A DNA stretch of 37,496 nucleotides from Gammaproteobacteria bacterium (GTDB taxonomy: Bacteria; Pseudomonadota; Gammaproteobacteria; S012-40): assembly GCA_029883265.1 (NCBI GenBank), contig JAOUJM010000021.1, forward strand, positions 1 through 37,496, given 5' to 3'. The notes beneath the pieces were generated by a model. It was not told the DNA's origin, made no database searches, and saw nothing but the letters and a program-made list of their open reading frames with translations. The position numbers and the translations under genes were made by a program. Shown one piece after another: positions 5,666 to 13,538 of the stretch; within the stretch, counting starts at the first letter, position 1; the number at the start of each line of letters is the position of its first letter.

Positions 5666-7630
5666 ATGGTTGATACCTATAAACCAAAAAGCAAAACAAA
5701 ATCCTGGTACCACTCTCAACCTATTGCAAGGGTTCTGGTATTAGGTTTTTTGTTGACAGCGTTAATACCGGTTACATTTATGGGTATAAAGGCTTATAAC
5801 TTAAGCGCCGAGACCATGGAGCAGCAAATCGAGCAAGGTCATGATTTTCTTGAAACCAATTTTGTACCTGTACTGAATCATTATCTAGAAAGTCAATTCT
5901 CAGCTTTTTCGTTATTTAGTCATAGTGTGGGAGAACAGTTAGCTGAAAATAAAAATAATAGCCAACTGCACCACACACTGTTCGATTTTGCTAATAGTTT
6001 TCCGGATTTTCTTAGTGTCGCCTGGTTGGATAGTAAAAAGGCCAACAAGATCGAATATGAAGGTAAACAAAGTTGGGAAGCATTGAGTCAGATTATTGAC
6101 CAGTCTTTCATTAACCAAGCAGCAGAATCGGAAAACTGGACCATTCGCTCAGTGATGTCTTGGGGAGAGAATTCACAACCGGTTTTAGTTGTTGCGCATG
6201 TAGTGTTGGATAATGCTGGACGGAAACATGGATTGGTGCTTGGAGTTTTGAAGCTGGATAATATTAAACAGCTTTTGAAACTTGCGCAGCACAATCAATT
6301 CAGCCGGGTACTATTACTTAATGAACGCCAGCAAGTAATCATGTCCTTACATGAGTTTGCTGAGTCTAATCGTGAACGTTTGACGCAAGCCGCTGTTTCA
6401 GTTCAACCCGGTCTGCAACGGCAAATGGAGCTCGCTGGCGAAACATGGCAGGTCGATAAAATCGATCTTAAATTTCATAATTGGGCGGTAGCTGTTTGGT
6501 ATCCACGCAGTCAACTTAAATCGGAAATTATCGCAACCTCAATGAAACATATTCAATGGGGCGTGGTTGGTTTGTTATTTGCGCTTGCATTGGCCTATTT
6601 AGCCGAACGTTGGGTGACGCGACCGGTAAATGTGTTAATTAAAAATTCGAGTGATCTGATTTTGCATGATCTAAAAGGCAGCTTGGCTGATCCTCAACCG
6701 CAAGCGCCGCTGGAAGTACAACGCCTGACAGCAACAATGAAAATGTTGACTAATGGCTTTCGTCAATCACTCAATGTAGTGAACAATTTGAATACGTCCT
6801 TACAAGAACGTGTAGACAACGCAACCAAACAACTAAAAGAAACCAATACTCAACTAGAATTAGCGCTTGCTCAAGCTGAACAAGCCAGTCTGGCAAAAGG
6901 AAGTTTTCTTGCCAACATGAGCCATGAATTGCGTACACCGATGAATGCCATTATTGGTTATAGTCAAATGTTAGAGGAAGAAGCCGAAGAACGACGGCTT
7001 GATGATTTAATTCCTGATTTGAAAAAAATTCAATCGTCGGGTCGTCACTTACTCGCGTTAATTAGCGATATTCTTGATTTGTCAAAAATAGAAGCGGGTA
7101 AAATGGAATTAAGCCTGAGTGAATTTGAAGTTGAAACATTGATTGCAGACACGATTGCTACAGTGCAACCCATGGTTGAACAAAATCGTAATGAATTTAA
7201 AGTGGACATTGAAACAAAATTAGGCTCTATGTATGCAGACGAAACTAAAGTGCGGCAAGCCTTGCTGAATCTTATGTCAAATGCAGCTAAGTTCACAGAA
7301 GACGGAGAAATTGCACTTAAAGTAGAATGTGTTGATAGCGAAGATGAAGAAATGATTCGTTTTTCGGTGTCTGACTCGGGCATCGGTCTGAGCGAAGAGC
7401 AAGTGTCAAAGCTATTTAACGAATTTACCCAAGCAGACTCATCTACGACACGAAAATATGGTGGTACCGGTTTGGGGCTGGCTATTAGTCGACGCTTCTG
7501 TCGCATGATGGGGGGAGACATTTACGTTCTAAGTACACTAGGACAAGGTTCAATATTTACCATCGAGGTTCCTATGACAGTGCAGGATAGAGGCTCGAGT
7601 ATGTTTGGCGATTCAAAGTTCGCCATGTAA
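5666..7630 (+). CDS. Membrane sensor histidine kinase with large periplasmic domain
   Basis: This 654-residue inner-membrane kinase probably senses a periplasmic signal and passes phosphate to an unlinked regulator. Domains in order: TM1 (about 20-42), a periplasmic sensor (43-293, Cache-like by length and position), TM2 (about 296-313), a HAMP-like linker, a coiled coil (about 370-410), HisKA with His420 in [13 protein letters not shown], and HATPase_c with Asn539 in [17 protein letters not shown] (570-575) and [12 protein letters not shown] (599-610). There is no attached receiver. The kinase core is the type often found in hybrid kinases. No receiver gene is adjacent on this strand; instead an adenylate cyclase gene follows after 2 nt. 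The nearest free receiver is the CheY-like protein 2.4 kb upstream. Confidence 0.95.
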
Positions 7631-7632
7631 TT

Positions 7633-9873
7633 ATGTTAAAAAGAACGCGAAAACTTTTCAGTTCAAAGAATATTATTAGTTTGGCAGTTATTGCATTTTT
7701 TCTTTTACACACCTCTGAAATTAGCTCCATTCCCTTTCTAGATAAAATAGAAAGTCAAGCCTATGACTTGCATTTAAATCTAACAATGCCAAACAGTGTG
7801 GACGAGCGAATAGTCATTGTTGATATTGATGAAAAAAGTTTAGCCACACTTGGCCGTTGGCCGTGGGATCGTCAAGTGATTGCCAAATTAGCAAATGAGC
7901 TGTTGAATCACTACGAAGTTAGTATTATTGGTTTTGACGTATTTTTTGTCGAGGAAGATGAAGGTGCAGATGCTAAAATATTAAAACGGCTAGCGAGTGA
8001 TGAACTGAAAAAGAATAATCAATATCAACAAGTCATACGCAAAATACTTCCAACATTGGACCATGACAAAAAACTAGCTGACAGCATTAACGGGCAGCCA
8101 GTGGTGTTGGGATATTTCTTTGATACAAATTCATTGAACGCTACACAAAAAGGGCAGCTACCCGATCCGTTCTATGTGAGTGCATTGCAGCAGGAACGGT
8201 TTCAGTGGGCCGAGCAGGCAAGTGGTTATGCAGCAAACCTGTCTGTTTTGCAGCAGGCTGCGCAAGGTGGCGGCTTTGTTGATAATCCTATGTTGGACGC
8301 AGATGGTGTAGTGCGCCGCGTGCGAATGTTAATGAAGTATGGTAACAATTATTATGCATCCTTGTCGTTGGCAATGGTCGCTGCACTCATGGGATTTCCT
8401 GAGCCTGAACTAGTAATCGGGCATGGCTATGGAGGTGGTGATCGTTTTGATAGTCAAATCGAGTCTCTGACCATTGCTGGCTCAACCATTCCCTTTGGTG
8501 CGATGGCCACGGCAACGGTACCATATCGGGGGCCGATGGGAAGTTATAACTACATTTCAGTTATTGATGTGTTAAACCATGTGGCAAAAAAAGAAACCTT
8601 GGAAGAGGCAATAATACTTATTGGTAGTAGTGCGCCTGGTTTGCTTGACTTGCGTTCCACGCCAGTAGGAACCGCGTATGCTGGGGTTGAAGTACACGCA
8701 AATATGATTAGCGGCATACTTGACAACACGATTCCAAAACATCCGCCTTATGTTCGTGGTGTTGAAAATGTGTTACTTCTGTTTATGGGCTTAATCATTA
8801 TTATTCTAGTGCCACGCTTATCGGCGGCATGGGTGCTGGCTGCTCTAGGAATCAGCGTGAGCCTGTTAGTATTGCTACGCATTGTCATGTGGACTAACAG
8901 TATTGTTCTGAATGTGGAGGCAATCATATTAATGATTTTGACTGTTGTCATGGTTCATGTGTCTTATGGATTTTTGTTTGAGCAGCGTCAGAAAAAACAA
9001 TTGGCGCATAGTTTTGGTCAATATGTTCCGCCGGAATTAGTCGATGAAATGAGTTTGTCTGAAGATCAGGAGTTTTCTCTTGAAGGTGAAAGTCGTGAGT
9101 TAACCGTGTTTTTTTCAGATGTGCGTAGCTTTAGTACGATTTCCGAAAGTCTCACGCCAAAACAATTGAAACAATGGATGAATGAATACTTAACGCCAAT
9201 GACAGGTGTTATTCATCGTAATCGAGGCACGATAGATAAATATATCGGTGATGCGATTATGGCCTTTTGGGGCGCTCCACTCAAAGATGAAAGTCACGCC
9301 TCGCATGCCATTGACGCGGCGATGGAAATGCTGGACCTGCTAAAACCACTTAATCAAATATATCAAGAACGTGACTGGCCACCGATTCGAATTGGTGTGG
9401 GTTTGAATACCGGTATAATGAATGTAGGTAACATGGGGTCGGAATTTCGTATGGCCTATACCGTCATGGGTGACGCCGTAAACCTAGGTTCGCGACTAGA
9501 AGGTTTGACAAAAAAATATGGTGTAGAATTAATTGTAAGTGAATATACAAAAAATGCCGCGCCTGATTATGTCTATCGACAACTAGATAAGGTGACGGTG
9601 GTTGGTAAAGCAGAAGCAGTCAGTATTTTTCAACCAGTGGCGCGCGTGCATGAGTTAAGTCAAGAGAATGAAACAGAGCTAAGTGTCTTCCATGAGGCTT
9701 TGTCTTTGTATTTTAAGCAGGATTGGCAACAGGCAAAACTTGCGTTTCAAAAATTATTGCATGATTATTCCAAGCTGCCTATCTACGAAATCTATTTAAA
9801 ACGAGTGCTTGAGTTTATGCAATCGCCACCTAGTGATGACTGGGATGGAGTTTATCAGCATACATCGAAATAA
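7633..9873 (+). CDS. CHASE2-domain class III adenylate cyclase
   Basis: This 746-residue membrane enzyme should convert ATP to cAMP in response to an extracytoplasmic cue. An N-terminal TM (about 13-27) leads to a CHASE2 sensor (about 35-370; IVIVDIDEKSLATLGRWPWDR is typical). Three TM helices follow (about 378-395, 400-416, 427-447), then a class III cyclase domain (about 485-670). The two metal-binding aspartates are Asp496 (FFSDVRSF) and Asp540 (KYIGDAIM). Lys536 and Asp614 fit adenine recognition. Asn617 and Arg621 (DAVNLGSR) are the transition-state residues. All catalytic residues are present, so it should be active as a homodimer. The C-terminal 80 residues resemble the tetratricopeptide-like tail common in this family. 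Only 2 nt separate it from the kinase gene. Confidence 0.95.
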   Translation: MLKRTRKLFSSKNIISLAVIAFFLLHTSEISSIPFLDKIESQAYDLHLNLTMPNSVDERIVIVDIDEKSLATLGRWPWDRQVIAKLANELLNHYEVSIIGFDVFFVEEDEGADAKILKRLASDELKKNNQYQQVIRKILPTLDHDKKLADSINGQPVVLGYFFDTNSLNATQKGQLPDPFYVSALQQERFQWAEQASGYAANLSVLQQAAQGGGFVDNPMLDADGVVRRVRMLMKYGNNYYASLSLAMVAALMGFPEPELVIGHGYGGGDRFDSQIESLTIAGSTIPFGAMATATVPYRGPMGSYNYISVIDVLNHVAKKETLEEAIILIGSSAPGLLDLRSTPVGTAYAGVEVHANMISGILDNTIPKHPPYVRGVENVLLLFMGLIIIILVPRLSAAWVLAALGISVSLLVLLRIVMWTNSIVLNVEAIILMILTVVMVHVSYGFLFEQRQKKQLAHSFGQYVPPELVDEMSLSEDQEFSLEGESRELTVFFSDVRSFSTISESLTPKQLKQWMNEYLTPMTGVIHRNRGTIDKYIGDAIMAFWGAPLKDESHASHAIDAAMEMLDLLKPLNQIYQERDWPPIRIGVGLNTGIMNVGNMGSEFRMAYTVMGDAVNLGSRLEGLTKKYGVELIVSEYTKNAAPDYVYRQLDKVTVVGKAEAVSIFQPVARVHELSQENETELSVFHEALSLYFKQDWQQAKLAFQKLLHDYSKLPIYEIYLKRVLEFMQSPPSDDWDGVYQHTSK

Positions 9874-11214
9874 TTAATTGTATATCCAAATGCGCACACA
9901 TAGTCCGCCTAGTTTGCTGTGGCGAAAAACGATTTTTCCCGAATAACTAGCAACAATATCTTTGGCCACAGCGAGACCGATGCCGTGACCGCCGGCTTCA
10001 CTTGGATCTGTAACGCCGCGCTGAGTGATACGTTCCTGCATGGATGGTTCGAGTCCAGGCCCATTGTCATCAATTTGAATAAAAATACCTGATTCTTGGT
10101 TGCTGGCTTGCACTCGTAACTGAATGTGGTGACGCGTCCATTTAAAGGCGTTGTCTAATACATTGCCTAGTAACTCCATGTAATCGCCTTCATCGCCTGT
10201 GAAAAATAATTGTTGGTCAACCTCGGCTTCTATTTGAATACCACGCTCCTGGTAAACAGTGCAAAGGCTGCGAATAATTTTATTTGTCGTCTTTTCAATA
10301 TCGATCGGTAAGGCTAGGGCGCTTTGGCCGGTGGTCGCGGCGCGTTTTAGCTGGTAGTCGACAATTTGATTCATGCGGTCAATTTGTTCGTTAATGATTT
10401 GGTTGGATGGTTGAGGGGTGGTATTAGTTTCGATAGTTGAGCGAATTAAGGCTAAAGGTGTTTTCAAGCTATGGGCTAAATCCGCGAGCGCATTCTTATA
10501 CCGAGAAATTCGCGACTGACGAGAACGGATTAATAAATTGATGTCATCTGTCAAACGTTCAATTTCTTTAGGGTAGTGAGCGCCAAGATAATCCTGTTTG
10601 CCTTGTTCAATTAATTTCAATTCTTCTCCTGCATTTTGTAAAGGACGCATTGACCATTGTTGTAGAAAATTAAATAAAATTAATAATACAACCGCAGCAC
10701 CGCCAAGCCAGCCAACTAAATGTTGTTGAAAGCGAAAAATTTCTTTGTTGTAGTTCTCAAGGGTTTCAAAAATATGGAAGCTATAGGTTACTTGGCGTTG
10801 GTTATCATCCCATGGAACACCGAAGGCTAAATAAAACAAATCTTCTTGTGACTTTAAGCGAATGCGTTTAAAAATTAATTCAGTGGCGCGCATTTTTTCC
10901 AAAGAAACCTGAATGCGCTCGGTGACCGATGGAGAGGTCCAGGCAATTTGATTGTTCGAATCAGTAATAATGGCGTATAAGCCGGAGTCTTCCTGGTTTA
11001 AACGGGCATCCGGTAAGCGTGAGGATAGCTGTACAATACCGGTATTAAGTTCAGCGACGGCTATTAAGGAAAAAACCTGTCCGCGTAAACGATCTTGAGT
11101 GGCTGCTTGCACGCTATCAGAAAAGCTATGGAAAAGTGCATAACCGCTAATGCTTAGAAAAGCCGTTAAAATAATTGTCATGGCTAACAATAATCGGGAA
11201 CGTAAGGAATTCAC
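9874..11214 (-). CDS. PhoQ-like sensor histidine kinase
   Basis: This 446-residue inner-membrane kinase is the partner of the response regulator just upstream. TM1 is at about 8-28, the periplasmic sensor at 29-165 and TM2 at about 168-184, followed by a HAMP-like region. The phosphorylated His248 sits in DLAHSLKTPLALI, a spelling typical of PhoQ-type kinases. The ATPase domain has Asn355 (NVLDNAFKWT), DDNGPGL (382-388) and GGHGIGLAVAKDI (408-420). The GTG at 11214 overlaps the regulator's TGA (GTGA), a classic sign of translational coupling, so I choose it over the TTG at 11232. The sensor is not obviously acidic as in enteric PhoQ, so Mg2+ sensing cannot be assumed. The stop abuts the stop of the convergent cyclase gene. 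Confidence 0.93.
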   Translation of the reverse strand: MNSLRSRLLLAMTIILTAFLSISGYALFHSFSDSVQAATQDRLRGQVFSLIAVAELNTGIVQLSSRLPDARLNQEDSGLYAIITDSNNQIAWTSPSVTERIQVSLEKMRATELIFKRIRLKSQEDLFYLAFGVPWDDNQRQVTYSFHIFETLENYNKEIFRFQQHLVGWLGGAAVVLLILFNFLQQWSMRPLQNAGEELKLIEQGKQDYLGAHYPKEIERLTDDINLLIRSRQSRISRYKNALADLAHSLKTPLALIRSTIETNTTPQPSNQIINEQIDRMNQIVDYQLKRAATTGQSALALPIDIEKTTNKIIRSLCTVYQERGIQIEAEVDQQLFFTGDEGDYMELLGNVLDNAFKWTRHHIQLRVQASNQESGIFIQIDDNGPGLEPSMQERITQRGVTDPSEAGGHGIGLAVAKDIVASYSGKIVFRHSKLGGLCVRIWIYN

Positions 11215-11894
11215 TCGATATTGTCCATGCAAACTAAACGATAACCACGACCACGCAGTGTTTCGATGGGATTCAATTGGTTATTTGGGTCGAGTTTTTT
11301 ACGAATACGGCGTACAAAGACTTCGATAACATTGCTGTCACGATCAAAGTCCTGGTCGTAAATATGCTCAATGAGTTTAGTTTTGGAAATAACTTCACCT
11401 TGGTGAAGAATTAAATACTCCAAGAATTTGAACTCATAGGCAGTAAGTTCAATTTCGGATGTGCCGACAAAAACTTTTTGTGTACGTGGATTTAAACGAA
11501 TCGGGCCACATTGAATATCGGTTTGTGGGTTTCCAGCGGCACGACGAATTAATGCACGTAGTCGTGCTTGTAATTCTTCGACATGAAATGGTTTAACCAT
11601 ATAGTCGTCGGCACCAGCCTCAAGTCCTTCGACTTTTTCTTGCCAGCGGCCTCGTGCTGTGAGGATTAGTACCGGAAAACGAACTTGTTCATTTCGCCAG
11701 TGTTGGATGACTTGCAAGCCACTGTAGTCAGGCAGGCCTAGGTCAACAATCGCTGCATCATAAGCATGTTCACAACCTAAAAATTGGCCTTCTTTAGCAT
11801 TTTCTGCGGCATCAACAGCATAACCGTGTTGACTAAGTTGTTCGACTAATTGCAGTCGTAAGGTAGATTCGTCTTCAATAACTAAAATTCGCAC
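11211..11894 (-). CDS. PhoP-like OmpR-family response regulator
   Basis: This 227-residue DNA-binding regulator has a receiver domain with the acidic pair in VIEDES, phospho-acceptor Asp51 (AIVDLGLPDYSGL) and Lys101 (YMVKPFHVEEL). It is followed by an OmpR/PhoB winged helix (about 128-222) with the SNVIEVFVRRIRKKL recognition helix and the RGRGYRL hairpin. The GTG at 11894 is preceded by AGGA at a 9-nt spacing and starts right at the conserved VRILVIEDE, so I reject the 18-residue upstream extension. Part of an operon with the cytochrome c gene before it and the PhoQ-like kinase after it. A 6-N5-6 direct repeat upstream of the operon is a likely binding site for this very protein. Confidence 0.94.
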   Translation of the reverse strand: MRILVIEDESTLRLQLVEQLSQHGYAVDAAENAKEGQFLGCEHAYDAAIVDLGLPDYSGLQVIQHWRNEQVRFPVLILTARGRWQEKVEGLEAGADDYMVKPFHVEELQARLRALIRRAAGNPQTDIQCGPIRLNPRTQKVFVGTSEIELTAYEFKFLEYLILHQGEVISKTKLIEHIYDQDFDRDSNVIEVFVRRIRKKLDPNNQLNPIETLRGRGYRLVCMDNIE

Positions 11895-11938: not shown

Positions 11939-11953
11939 CATCTGACACTTGGC

Positions 11954-12274
11954 TTATAAGGAAAGCACAAAGTCGACCAATTTTTCAATGTCTGCGTCAG
12001 AAAGACGTGGTGAATATGGAGGCATGGGAACGCCACCTGTCACTTGTGTCCAATTACCTTTACCGCCTTTTTTAACTTTCTCGATAAGCAAAGCTTTTGC
12101 GTCAGCTTGACCTTTGTAGCGTGCTGCTACGTCCTTCCAGCCAGGACCAACGATTTTCTTGTCAACAGAATGGCATGCTAAACAACCGCTTTTACGCGCT
12201 AGGTTTAGGTCTGCCCAAGAAGCCGAAGCCATGAAAGTTAAAACTAATGCGATAGTAATTTGTCGTAATATCAT
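11954..12274 (-). CDS. Small periplasmic class I cytochrome c
   Basis: This is a 106-residue precursor of a soluble monohaem electron carrier of the c551/c552 kind. The signal peptide is residues 1-21 (ends SASWA, cleavage before DLN). The haem attachment site is Cys31-L-A-Cys34-His35, the sixth ligand is Met84 in GGVPMPPYSPR, and the final helix is ADIEKLVDFVLSL. The mature protein of about 85 residues matches the family. It would carry electrons between periplasmic redox partners such as a bc1 complex and a terminal oxidase or peroxidase. GAGG 8 nt before the ATG is a good ribosome binding site. First gene of an operon with the PhoP-like and PhoQ-like genes, an unusual association. Confidence 0.95.
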   Translation of the reverse strand: MILRQITIALVLTFMASASWADLNLARKSGCLACHSVDKKIVGPGWKDVAARYKGQADAKALLIEKVKKGGKGNWTQVTGGVPMPPYSPRLSDADIEKLVDFVLSL

Positions 12275-12330
12275 ATGGTTAACCTCACTAAGATAATATT
12301 ATCGACTGGCCGTAAAACCAGTGATGCTTA

Positions 12331-12364
12331 GCTTACGCGCTTTAAAATGAACCTTAACTGAACC
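12331..12364 (-). promoter_or_regulatory. Putative PhoP/OmpR-type operator and promoter for the cytochrome c-regulator-kinase operon
   Basis: TGAACC at 12348-12353 and 12359-12364 form a perfect direct repeat with a 5-nt spacer. On the minus strand this reads GGTTCA-N5-GGTTCA, the 11-nt period used by OmpR/PhoB-family dimers and close to PhoP boxes (GGTTTA or GTTCAG halves). Twelve bases further along the minus strand is TAAGCT, a weak -10 candidate, about 60 nt upstream of the cytochrome ATG. This suggests activation of the operon by its own regulator. Confidence 0.5.
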
Positions 12365-12446
12365 ACGGTAGGGTTTTTAGGGGTGTTCTAAGGCATTAAA
12401 TTTTGGCCATTTTTGCCGATTAAAGGCTAGAGTTTGGGAGTATTTC

Positions 12447-13538
12447 ATGGACCCTTTAGCGCGTTATCGAAATGATATTCAGCAGCGACAGTTTACTGAG
12501 GATGAGGATCAATTAGTCCTATTGCAGAGTTGTCAGCAATTGTTTGAACAACTGCAAAGTCGACCCTGGCAGCGCCCTACGCTGATGCGTAAACAAGTCA
12601 GTCCGCTAAAAGGGCTGTATTTTTGGGGTGGTGTGGGCCGAGGAAAGACCTATATTCTGGATTTGTTGTATGAAAGTTTGCCATTTTCACAAAAAAAACG
12701 TGTGCATTTTGGTGAATTTATGCGTGATTTGCATGATCAAATGCAAATTCTCGGCAAGACAACGAACCCACTGAGCCAAATAGCAAAAAAGCTTGCTGAC
12801 CGATATAGGATTATTTTTATTGATGAATTTCATGTAGATGATATTGCTGACGCGATGATTTTGGCCGAATTTCTCCAGGCTTTATTTGCTGAAGGTACAA
12901 CCATAGTCACTAGTTCAAATACTGCTCCGCAAGAATTATACAAAAACGGTTTGCAGCGTAGTCGGTTTTTGCCGGCGATTGAATTACTGCAACAATATAC
13001 CGAAGTGCTCGAATTACTGAGTCAAACAGACTATCGACAAAGGTTTTTACAAGCTCAAGGCAGTTACCATATTGTTGCTAGCGAAGCTGACACGCTGTTA
13101 ATGGCCAAAGAATTCCAGCAAATGACTGGTGTTGAACCAAAACCCAGTACTATTACACTCAACCACAAGCCTCTGCAGATTCTTGGCGAGTCTATTGATA
13201 CTGCTTGGGTAGATTTCAAAAACCTATGTGCATCCGCGCGCTCCAGTAGTGATTTTATCGAGCTAGGTTGTCGTTACCCGACCTTGTTTCTGAATCATGT
13301 ACCTCGTTTGCATGAGGGGCAAAATGATCAAGCACAACGTTTTATTCAACTAGTCGATGCCTTGTATGATCATAGTGTCAAACTGATTCTTAGCGCTGAG
13401 GTGCAGCCACCTGAATTATATAAGGGTCAGGCGCTGGCAGGGGTTTTCCAACGCACTGCAAGTCGCTTGCTGGAAATGCGTAGTGCGGATTATTTAACTC
13501 GACCGCATAAACCTTGTGCAGTGCGCTACGCTGCCTAG
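12447..13538 (+). CDS. zapE: Cell division protein ZapE (AFG1-like ATPase)
   Basis: ZapE is a cytoplasmic P-loop ATPase that acts on the Z-ring during division, especially under stress. The 363-residue length suits the family. Walker A is GGVGRGKT (61-68) and Walker B is IIFIDEFHVDD (Asp126-Glu127), followed by the sensor-1 region TIVTSSNTAPQELYKNGLQR. The C-terminal part has FLNHVPRLHEGQNDQAQRF, where the family carries its F-x-x-x-P-x-L segment, and ends TASRLLEMRS. The ATG follows GGGAG by 7 nt. It is divergent from the cytochrome/PhoPQ-like operon, so the operator region between them could influence both. Confidence 0.95.
   Translation: MDPLARYRNDIQQRQFTEDEDQLVLLQSCQQLFEQLQSRPWQRPTLMRKQVSPLKGLYFWGGVGRGKTYILDLLYESLPFSQKKRVHFGEFMRDLHDQMQILGKTTNPLSQIAKKLADRYRIIFIDEFHVDDIADAMILAEFLQALFAEGTTIVTSSNTAPQELYKNGLQRSRFLPAIELLQQYTEVLELLSQTDYRQRFLQAQGSYHIVASEADTLLMAKEFQQMTGVEPKPSTITLNHKPLQILGESIDTAWVDFKNLCASARSSSDFIELGCRYPTLFLNHVPRLHEGQNDQAQRFIQLVDALYDHSVKLILSAEVQPPELYKGQALAGVFQRTASRLLEMRSADYLTRPHKPCAVRYAA

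Follow-up and report, generated by a model that had tools for sequence, protein, structure and literature searches.

The direct repeat GGTTCAGTTAAGGTTCA, which lies in front of a small cytochrome c gene, is very probably a PhoP box through which a PhoP-type response regulator activates its own cytochrome c-phoP-phoQ operon. It was found in the window, that is, the whole 37,496-nucleotide stretch of gammaproteobacterial DNA analysed here. A sequence-only reading had proposed a PhoP-type operator controlling its own operon, and this proposal is supported by phylogenetic footprinting, promoter geometry, published boxes and the placement of the regulator in the PhoP clade. The presence, conservation, spacing and orientation of the repeat, its distance from the -10 hexamer and the PhoP-clade membership of the regulator were all computed directly.

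The probable operator, its promoter and the operon

The half-sites of the repeat occupy 12364-12359 and 12353-12348 on the minus strand, and the second is followed by T instead of G. The GGTTCA-N5-GGTTCA described earlier, running from 12364 to 12348 with an 11-nt period, is present with no mismatches, and the TAAGCT placed 12 nt beyond it lies at exactly that distance, at 12335-12330 (Table 1). A further 55 nt separate TAAGCT from the ATG of the cytochrome c gene, and in relatives the same cytochrome gene is the first after the operator. A promoter scan of 12250-12460 found no sigma-70-type -35/-10 pair and no consensus promoter. The GTG start of the regulator gene was inferred by alignment of orthologues, the mechanical open reading frame beginning at 11948. 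On the plus strand, 5666-9873 encodes a sensor kinase and then a CHASE2-like adenylate/guanylate cyclase, both named from a reading of their translations.

Table 1. Predicted operator, promoter element and genes of the phoP region of the window
Feature	Position	Strand	Evidence or remark
PhoP-box operator GGTTCAGTTAAGGTTCA (predicted)	12348..12364	-	exact, 0 mismatches
-10-like hexamer TAAGCT	12330..12335	-	exactly 12 nt past operator
Operon gene 1, small secreted mono-haem c-type cytochrome, 106 aa	11954..12274	-	Pfam PF00034, E 3.7e-11
PhoP-type response regulator	11211..11894	-	PF00072 and PF00486
PhoQ-type sensor histidine kinase	9874..11232	-	overlaps regulator gene; PF02518; PF00512 slightly below cut-off
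zapE, divergent neighbour	12447..13538	+	NCBIfam ZapE, 380.6 bits

In the mechanism that we propose, the PhoP-type regulator encoded in the operon, once phosphorylated, would bind the two GGTTCA half-sites as a head-to-tail dimer. The downstream half-site, 12 nt before the -10 hexamer, would then cover the -35 region, which has no -35 consensus of its own, and PhoP would recruit sigma-70 RNA polymerase by class II activation. The expected result is transcription of cytochrome c-phoP-phoQ, presumably by activation rather than repression.

The Salmonella phoP box is reported to be directly oriented, with some 12 nt between it and the -10 downstream, and is predicted to be of class II; box-to--10 distances of 12 and 23 nt worked there, and 7 and 17 nt failed (PMC3335776). 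The window has the same class II arrangement (Salmonella architecture I), with a direct box 12 nt upstream of TAAGCT and over the -35 region, and the E. coli phoP promoter reads GGTTTATTTAATGTTTA-N12-CATAAT. The enteric promoters therefore resemble that of the window in having a direct repeat of 11-nt period, direct orientation and 12 nt to the -10, in front of their own operon. They differ in the half-site, GTTTA rather than GTTCA, and their operon has no cytochrome gene. The enteric box (T/G)GTTTA-N5-(T/G)GTTTA itself is not matched, both half-sites in the window having C for T at position 5.

The P. aeruginosa PhoP box is GTTCAGNNNNNRTTCAG, as described in a gel-shift and mutational study at retS (PMC3156716), and the ChIP-seq motif of this regulator is given as G/ATTCAG (PMC7916210). 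The box in the window agrees with GTTCAGNNNNNRTTCAG at 11 of the 12 specified bases, the exception being the last G, which is T. The consensus reportedly goes back to McPhee 2006. The P. aeruginosa oprH-phoP-phoQ operon shares with that of the window the half-site GTTCAG, the 11-nt period, an envelope protein gene in first place and an orthologous regulator. It differs in its first gene (oprH, not cytochrome c), in the base after the second half-site and in the number of tandem copies, four in the PA7 locus as against two here. Yersinia pestis y1795-phoP-phoQ is reported to have an autoregulated promoter (PMC2650801); the likeness is autoregulation through a promoter before an extra gene 5′ of phoP, with the difference that the box is of enteric type and the extra gene is another one. 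Box, promoter layout and promoter before an extra gene are each already known, since the word is that of P. aeruginosa, the layout that of enteric phoP and the extra 5′ gene a feature of Yersinia.

Conservation of the repeat and identity of the regulator

The search for homologous regulators covered 56 genomes (including that of the window) and a set of named genomes, 80 loci being kept from the latter, and TTCA-Nk-TTCA was counted within 1500 nt upstream of each regulator, some loci having less upstream DNA than this. With the window left out, TTCA-N7-TTCA was found on the operon strand at 33 of the 39 loci whose regulators share 53% identity or more, in genomes that are not independent samples and come from two collections that may overlap. 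The upstream comparison that had been suggested as a check thus shows the repeat to be conserved. At 45-53% identity the count was 10/12, in a mixed group of six Pseudomonas-type PhoPs, four members of a neighbouring clade and two others, and below 45% it fell to 4/58. Other spacings (k=0-6 and 8-20) each occurred at 0-3 of the 39 closest loci, k=7 on the opposite strand at one, and the extended form TTCAG-N6-TTCAG at 20. At the six loci from Pseudomonas or Halopseudomonas there are three or four copies at the 11-nt period; the P. aeruginosa PA7 operon, whose first gene we take to be oprH from a reading of its protein and from the known operon, has four copies of TTCAG with this period.

The exact word is absent from six of the 39 close loci. 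At three of these (L028, L047 and L053) there is a near-match in which one half-site reads TTAAG; at the others (L029, L030 and L045) no box was found upstream, near-matches included. Mixed TTCAG and TTAAG half-sites, with the same spacing and bridging the PhoP and BqsR boxes, were seen upstream of L154 as well as of L028, L047 and L053. Five Xanthomonadaceae-type phoP loci (L041, L042, L044, L050 and L023) have boxes of the form TTCA[GT]A[CT]C[CG][AG]ATTCAC in common.

The distance to the -10 was similarly constant. At 25 of 35 sites in the group with at least 53% identity, a gap of exactly 12 nt separated the second TTCA from TAnnnT, the next best offset accounting for 2/35. In the 45-53% group (21 sites, many of them from tandem copies) the commonest offsets were 12 (five sites), 23 (five) and 34 (four), a series rising from 12 in steps of 11. 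At the five Xanthomonadaceae-type sites the leading TA is missing from the 12-nt place.

The best NCBIfam match of the regulator was PhoP (NF008078), at 221.7 bits and below the equivalog cut-off of 336. It has the OmpR-family receiver and winged helix and groups with known PhoPs: in a tree of 76 rows it fell in a 47-row clade (support 100/99) that includes the PhoPs of E. coli, here a long branch, and P. aeruginosa together with Xanthomonas-type PhoPs. The box was present in 40 of the 47 rows, 28 of these followed by a -10 after 12 nt; the seven without it are E. coli, which has the GTTTA box, and the six close loci that lack the exact word. In the next clade (15 rows, 100/99), which holds the second-best regulator of P. 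aeruginosa PA7 and C438, the closest paralogue of the regulator in its own genome (48% identical), five rows carried the word, and in the BasR/QseB clade none of 11 did. The word was also present at L046, L048 and L093, which lie outside these three clades. The second-best PA7 regulator may, we assume, be BqsR/CarR. Three neighbouring-clade regulators (L033, L034 and L173) have TTCAGCTTCA[AC]TTCA upstream, possibly a shared or exchanged specificity. In one genome a PhoP-like regulator is split over two frames (G040:C211:7393-8053) by a frameshift or an assembly error, and three box promoters remain there.

The kinase gave PhoQ (NF008077) as its best NCBIfam match, at 204.6 bits, under the cut-off of 497 and over residues 181-448 only. 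Its sensor domain and flanking helices were modelled from 17 sequences (pLDDT 92.4). Searches with the modelled sensor domain placed PhoQ crystal structures first in Foldseek (E 5.1e-4) and PhoQ structures first in VIA-align (Z 11.3, 2.8 Å, 106 residues). An integrative model of WalK drew level in VIA-align (Z 11.2), its match taking in the entire membrane arrangement. The domain is accordingly given here as modelled with a PhoQ fold. In the aligned region neither the kinase in the window nor P. aeruginosa PhoQ has the acidic EDDDDAE cluster found in enteric PhoQ, and Mg2+ sensing should therefore not be assumed.

Alternative readings of the repeat

The earlier reading had drawn attention to the repeat by its exactness, which was held to be rare by chance. 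This was correct only in part. The window contains seven perfect 6-N5-6 direct repeats of any sequence, and one arises in about 3% of mononucleotide shuffles of a 172-nt intergenic region of the same composition. The genome of the window has three exact copies of GGTTCA-N5-GGTTCA, but enrichment failed to appear: 17 sites with at most one mismatch compared with 28 for the reversed-pattern control, and a genome-wide excess was rejected. In this genome TTCA-N7-TTCA-N12-TANNNT was uninformative at its stringency (5 matches against 4 in the control); the stricter TTCAG form, TTCAGNNNNNRTTCA-N12-TANNNT, gave two matches against none in the same genome and 65 in 52 genomes, where its reversed counterpart gave 3. 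Exactness is thus not what gives the repeat its significance. The seven repeats and the lack of enrichment would suit a functionless chance repeat, but we consider this almost certainly wrong, because word, spacing, strand and the 12-nt distance to the -10 are conserved in orthologous operons across many genera. Conservation, and not the repeat itself, is decisive.

Binding of the box by another OmpR-family regulator, for instance the paralogue C438, alone or in competition with PhoP, is quite improbable. P. aeruginosa BqsR, reported to be ferrous-iron responsive, binds TTAAG-N6-TTAAG (PMC4682146), a direct repeat with the same spacing as that of the window and with its downstream half-site over the -35. 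The mixed TTCAG/TTAAG sites upstream of L154, L028 and L047 favour such a regulator, and the paralogue might share the site because TTCA-N7-TTCA stands upstream in five of the 15 rows of its clade. C438 itself, however, lacks the word in its upstream region, the word tracks phoP in 40 of 47 PhoP-clade rows, and the published binder of the word is P. aeruginosa PhoP (PMC3156716, PMC7916210). The BqsR box was rejected as the identity of the site, its TTAAG being a mismatch to TTCAG, and BqsR was retained as a rival binder. The tandem TAACTGA heptamers described from Beggiatoaceae (PMC4679880) were also considered; the plus strand has TAACTGA once, and they were rejected because no tandem copy within two mismatches occurs in the window.

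The zapE start codon follows the operator after 82 nt, and Salmonella PhoP in reverse orientation can reportedly act 27, 37 or 48 nt from the -10 (PMC3335776), which would allow the operator also, or mainly, to control this divergent gene. We think this quite improbable. The gene was sought in 19 genomes and found in nine, and only three of these nine loci have the box within 500 nt upstream of zapE, exactly those with phoP adjacent; in all three the box points away from zapE, and the other six have none. Of ten genomes examined in which no zapE match turned up, nine retain the box at phoP, and the promoter scan found no consensus for zapE on the plus strand. zapE is probably not a target of the operator, control of zapE as a conserved function is rejected on box orientation and the relatives' loci, and the suggestion that the regulator could affect division through zapE finds no support, since the box points away from the gene and persists where it is absent or elsewhere. 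Repression by PhoP at this box is highly improbable. P. aeruginosa PhoP does repress retS, from a box placed after the -10 and before the start codon (PMC3156716), but in the window the box is upstream of the -10, at the distance of a class II activator, and not downstream of it. Autoregulatory activation by the PhoP-type regulator remains the reading that we prefer.

The cytochrome link and other genes behind the box

Thirty cytochrome loci were examined of 55 matches. All ten cytochrome genes adjoining phoP, including that of the window, have the box with the -10 at 12 nt, while only one of 20 copies unlinked to phoP has a box; in that genome (G012) the phoP locus, L029, is without one. The idea that the cytochrome gene carries the box wherever it is located was rejected, because 19 of the 20 unlinked copies lack it. 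Among 34 TTCAGNNNNNRTTCA-N12-TANNNT sites in the loci examined, a cytochrome gene comes next in 11 (window included), as judged from translations, and in one more (L143/L190) from the comparison of cytochrome loci. The first gene was scanned at nine sites, and at three of these it encodes a glycine-zipper protein (PF05433). The second strict site in the genome of the window (G000), at C322:1911-1879 (L178:1879-1911), lies 38 nt before the ATG of a gene for a lipoprotein-like protein of 487 residues, whose TPR matches are weak and do not reach the Pfam cut-offs; the gene is downstream of phoB-phoR-pstS-like genes. In another genome, G013, strict PhoP-box promoters number 12, and a 1.7-kb stretch of contig C3 holds three of these; the regulon there is likely to be expanded.

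Nothing relevant was returned when the literature was searched for a connection between PhoP and cytochrome c, or for TTCAG together with PepSY and a response regulator, and the combination of the box with cytochrome c as first operon gene was not found in the limited literature searched. The main text of a paper on PhoP-box evolution (PMC2908699) makes no mention of Pseudomonas, Xanthomonas or GTTCA. A 2020 paper on Stenotrophomonas describes the PhoP consensus as 'not clear' (PMC7559202). The box described here supplies a predicted PhoP operator and promoter for lineages, such as Stenotrophomonas, that have none in the literature consulted.

Between non-enteric and enteric PhoP boxes the half-site differs in a single base, C in the former and T in the latter, and both types keep the 11-nt period and a gap of 12 nt before the -10. 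We tentatively suggest, while thinking it somewhat less probable than its converse, that the TTCAG box and the promoter at its fixed 12-nt distance represent the ancestral autoregulatory switch of PhoP in Gammaproteobacteria, that the enteric GTTTA box is derived from it and that in the lineage of the window the cytochrome is a core product of PhoP. The recurrent association of the box with a small c-type cytochrome is a candidate lead to the role of PhoP in these bacteria, and if the ancestral-switch reading is true, the lineage of the window would tie envelope sensing to electron transfer through this cytochrome.
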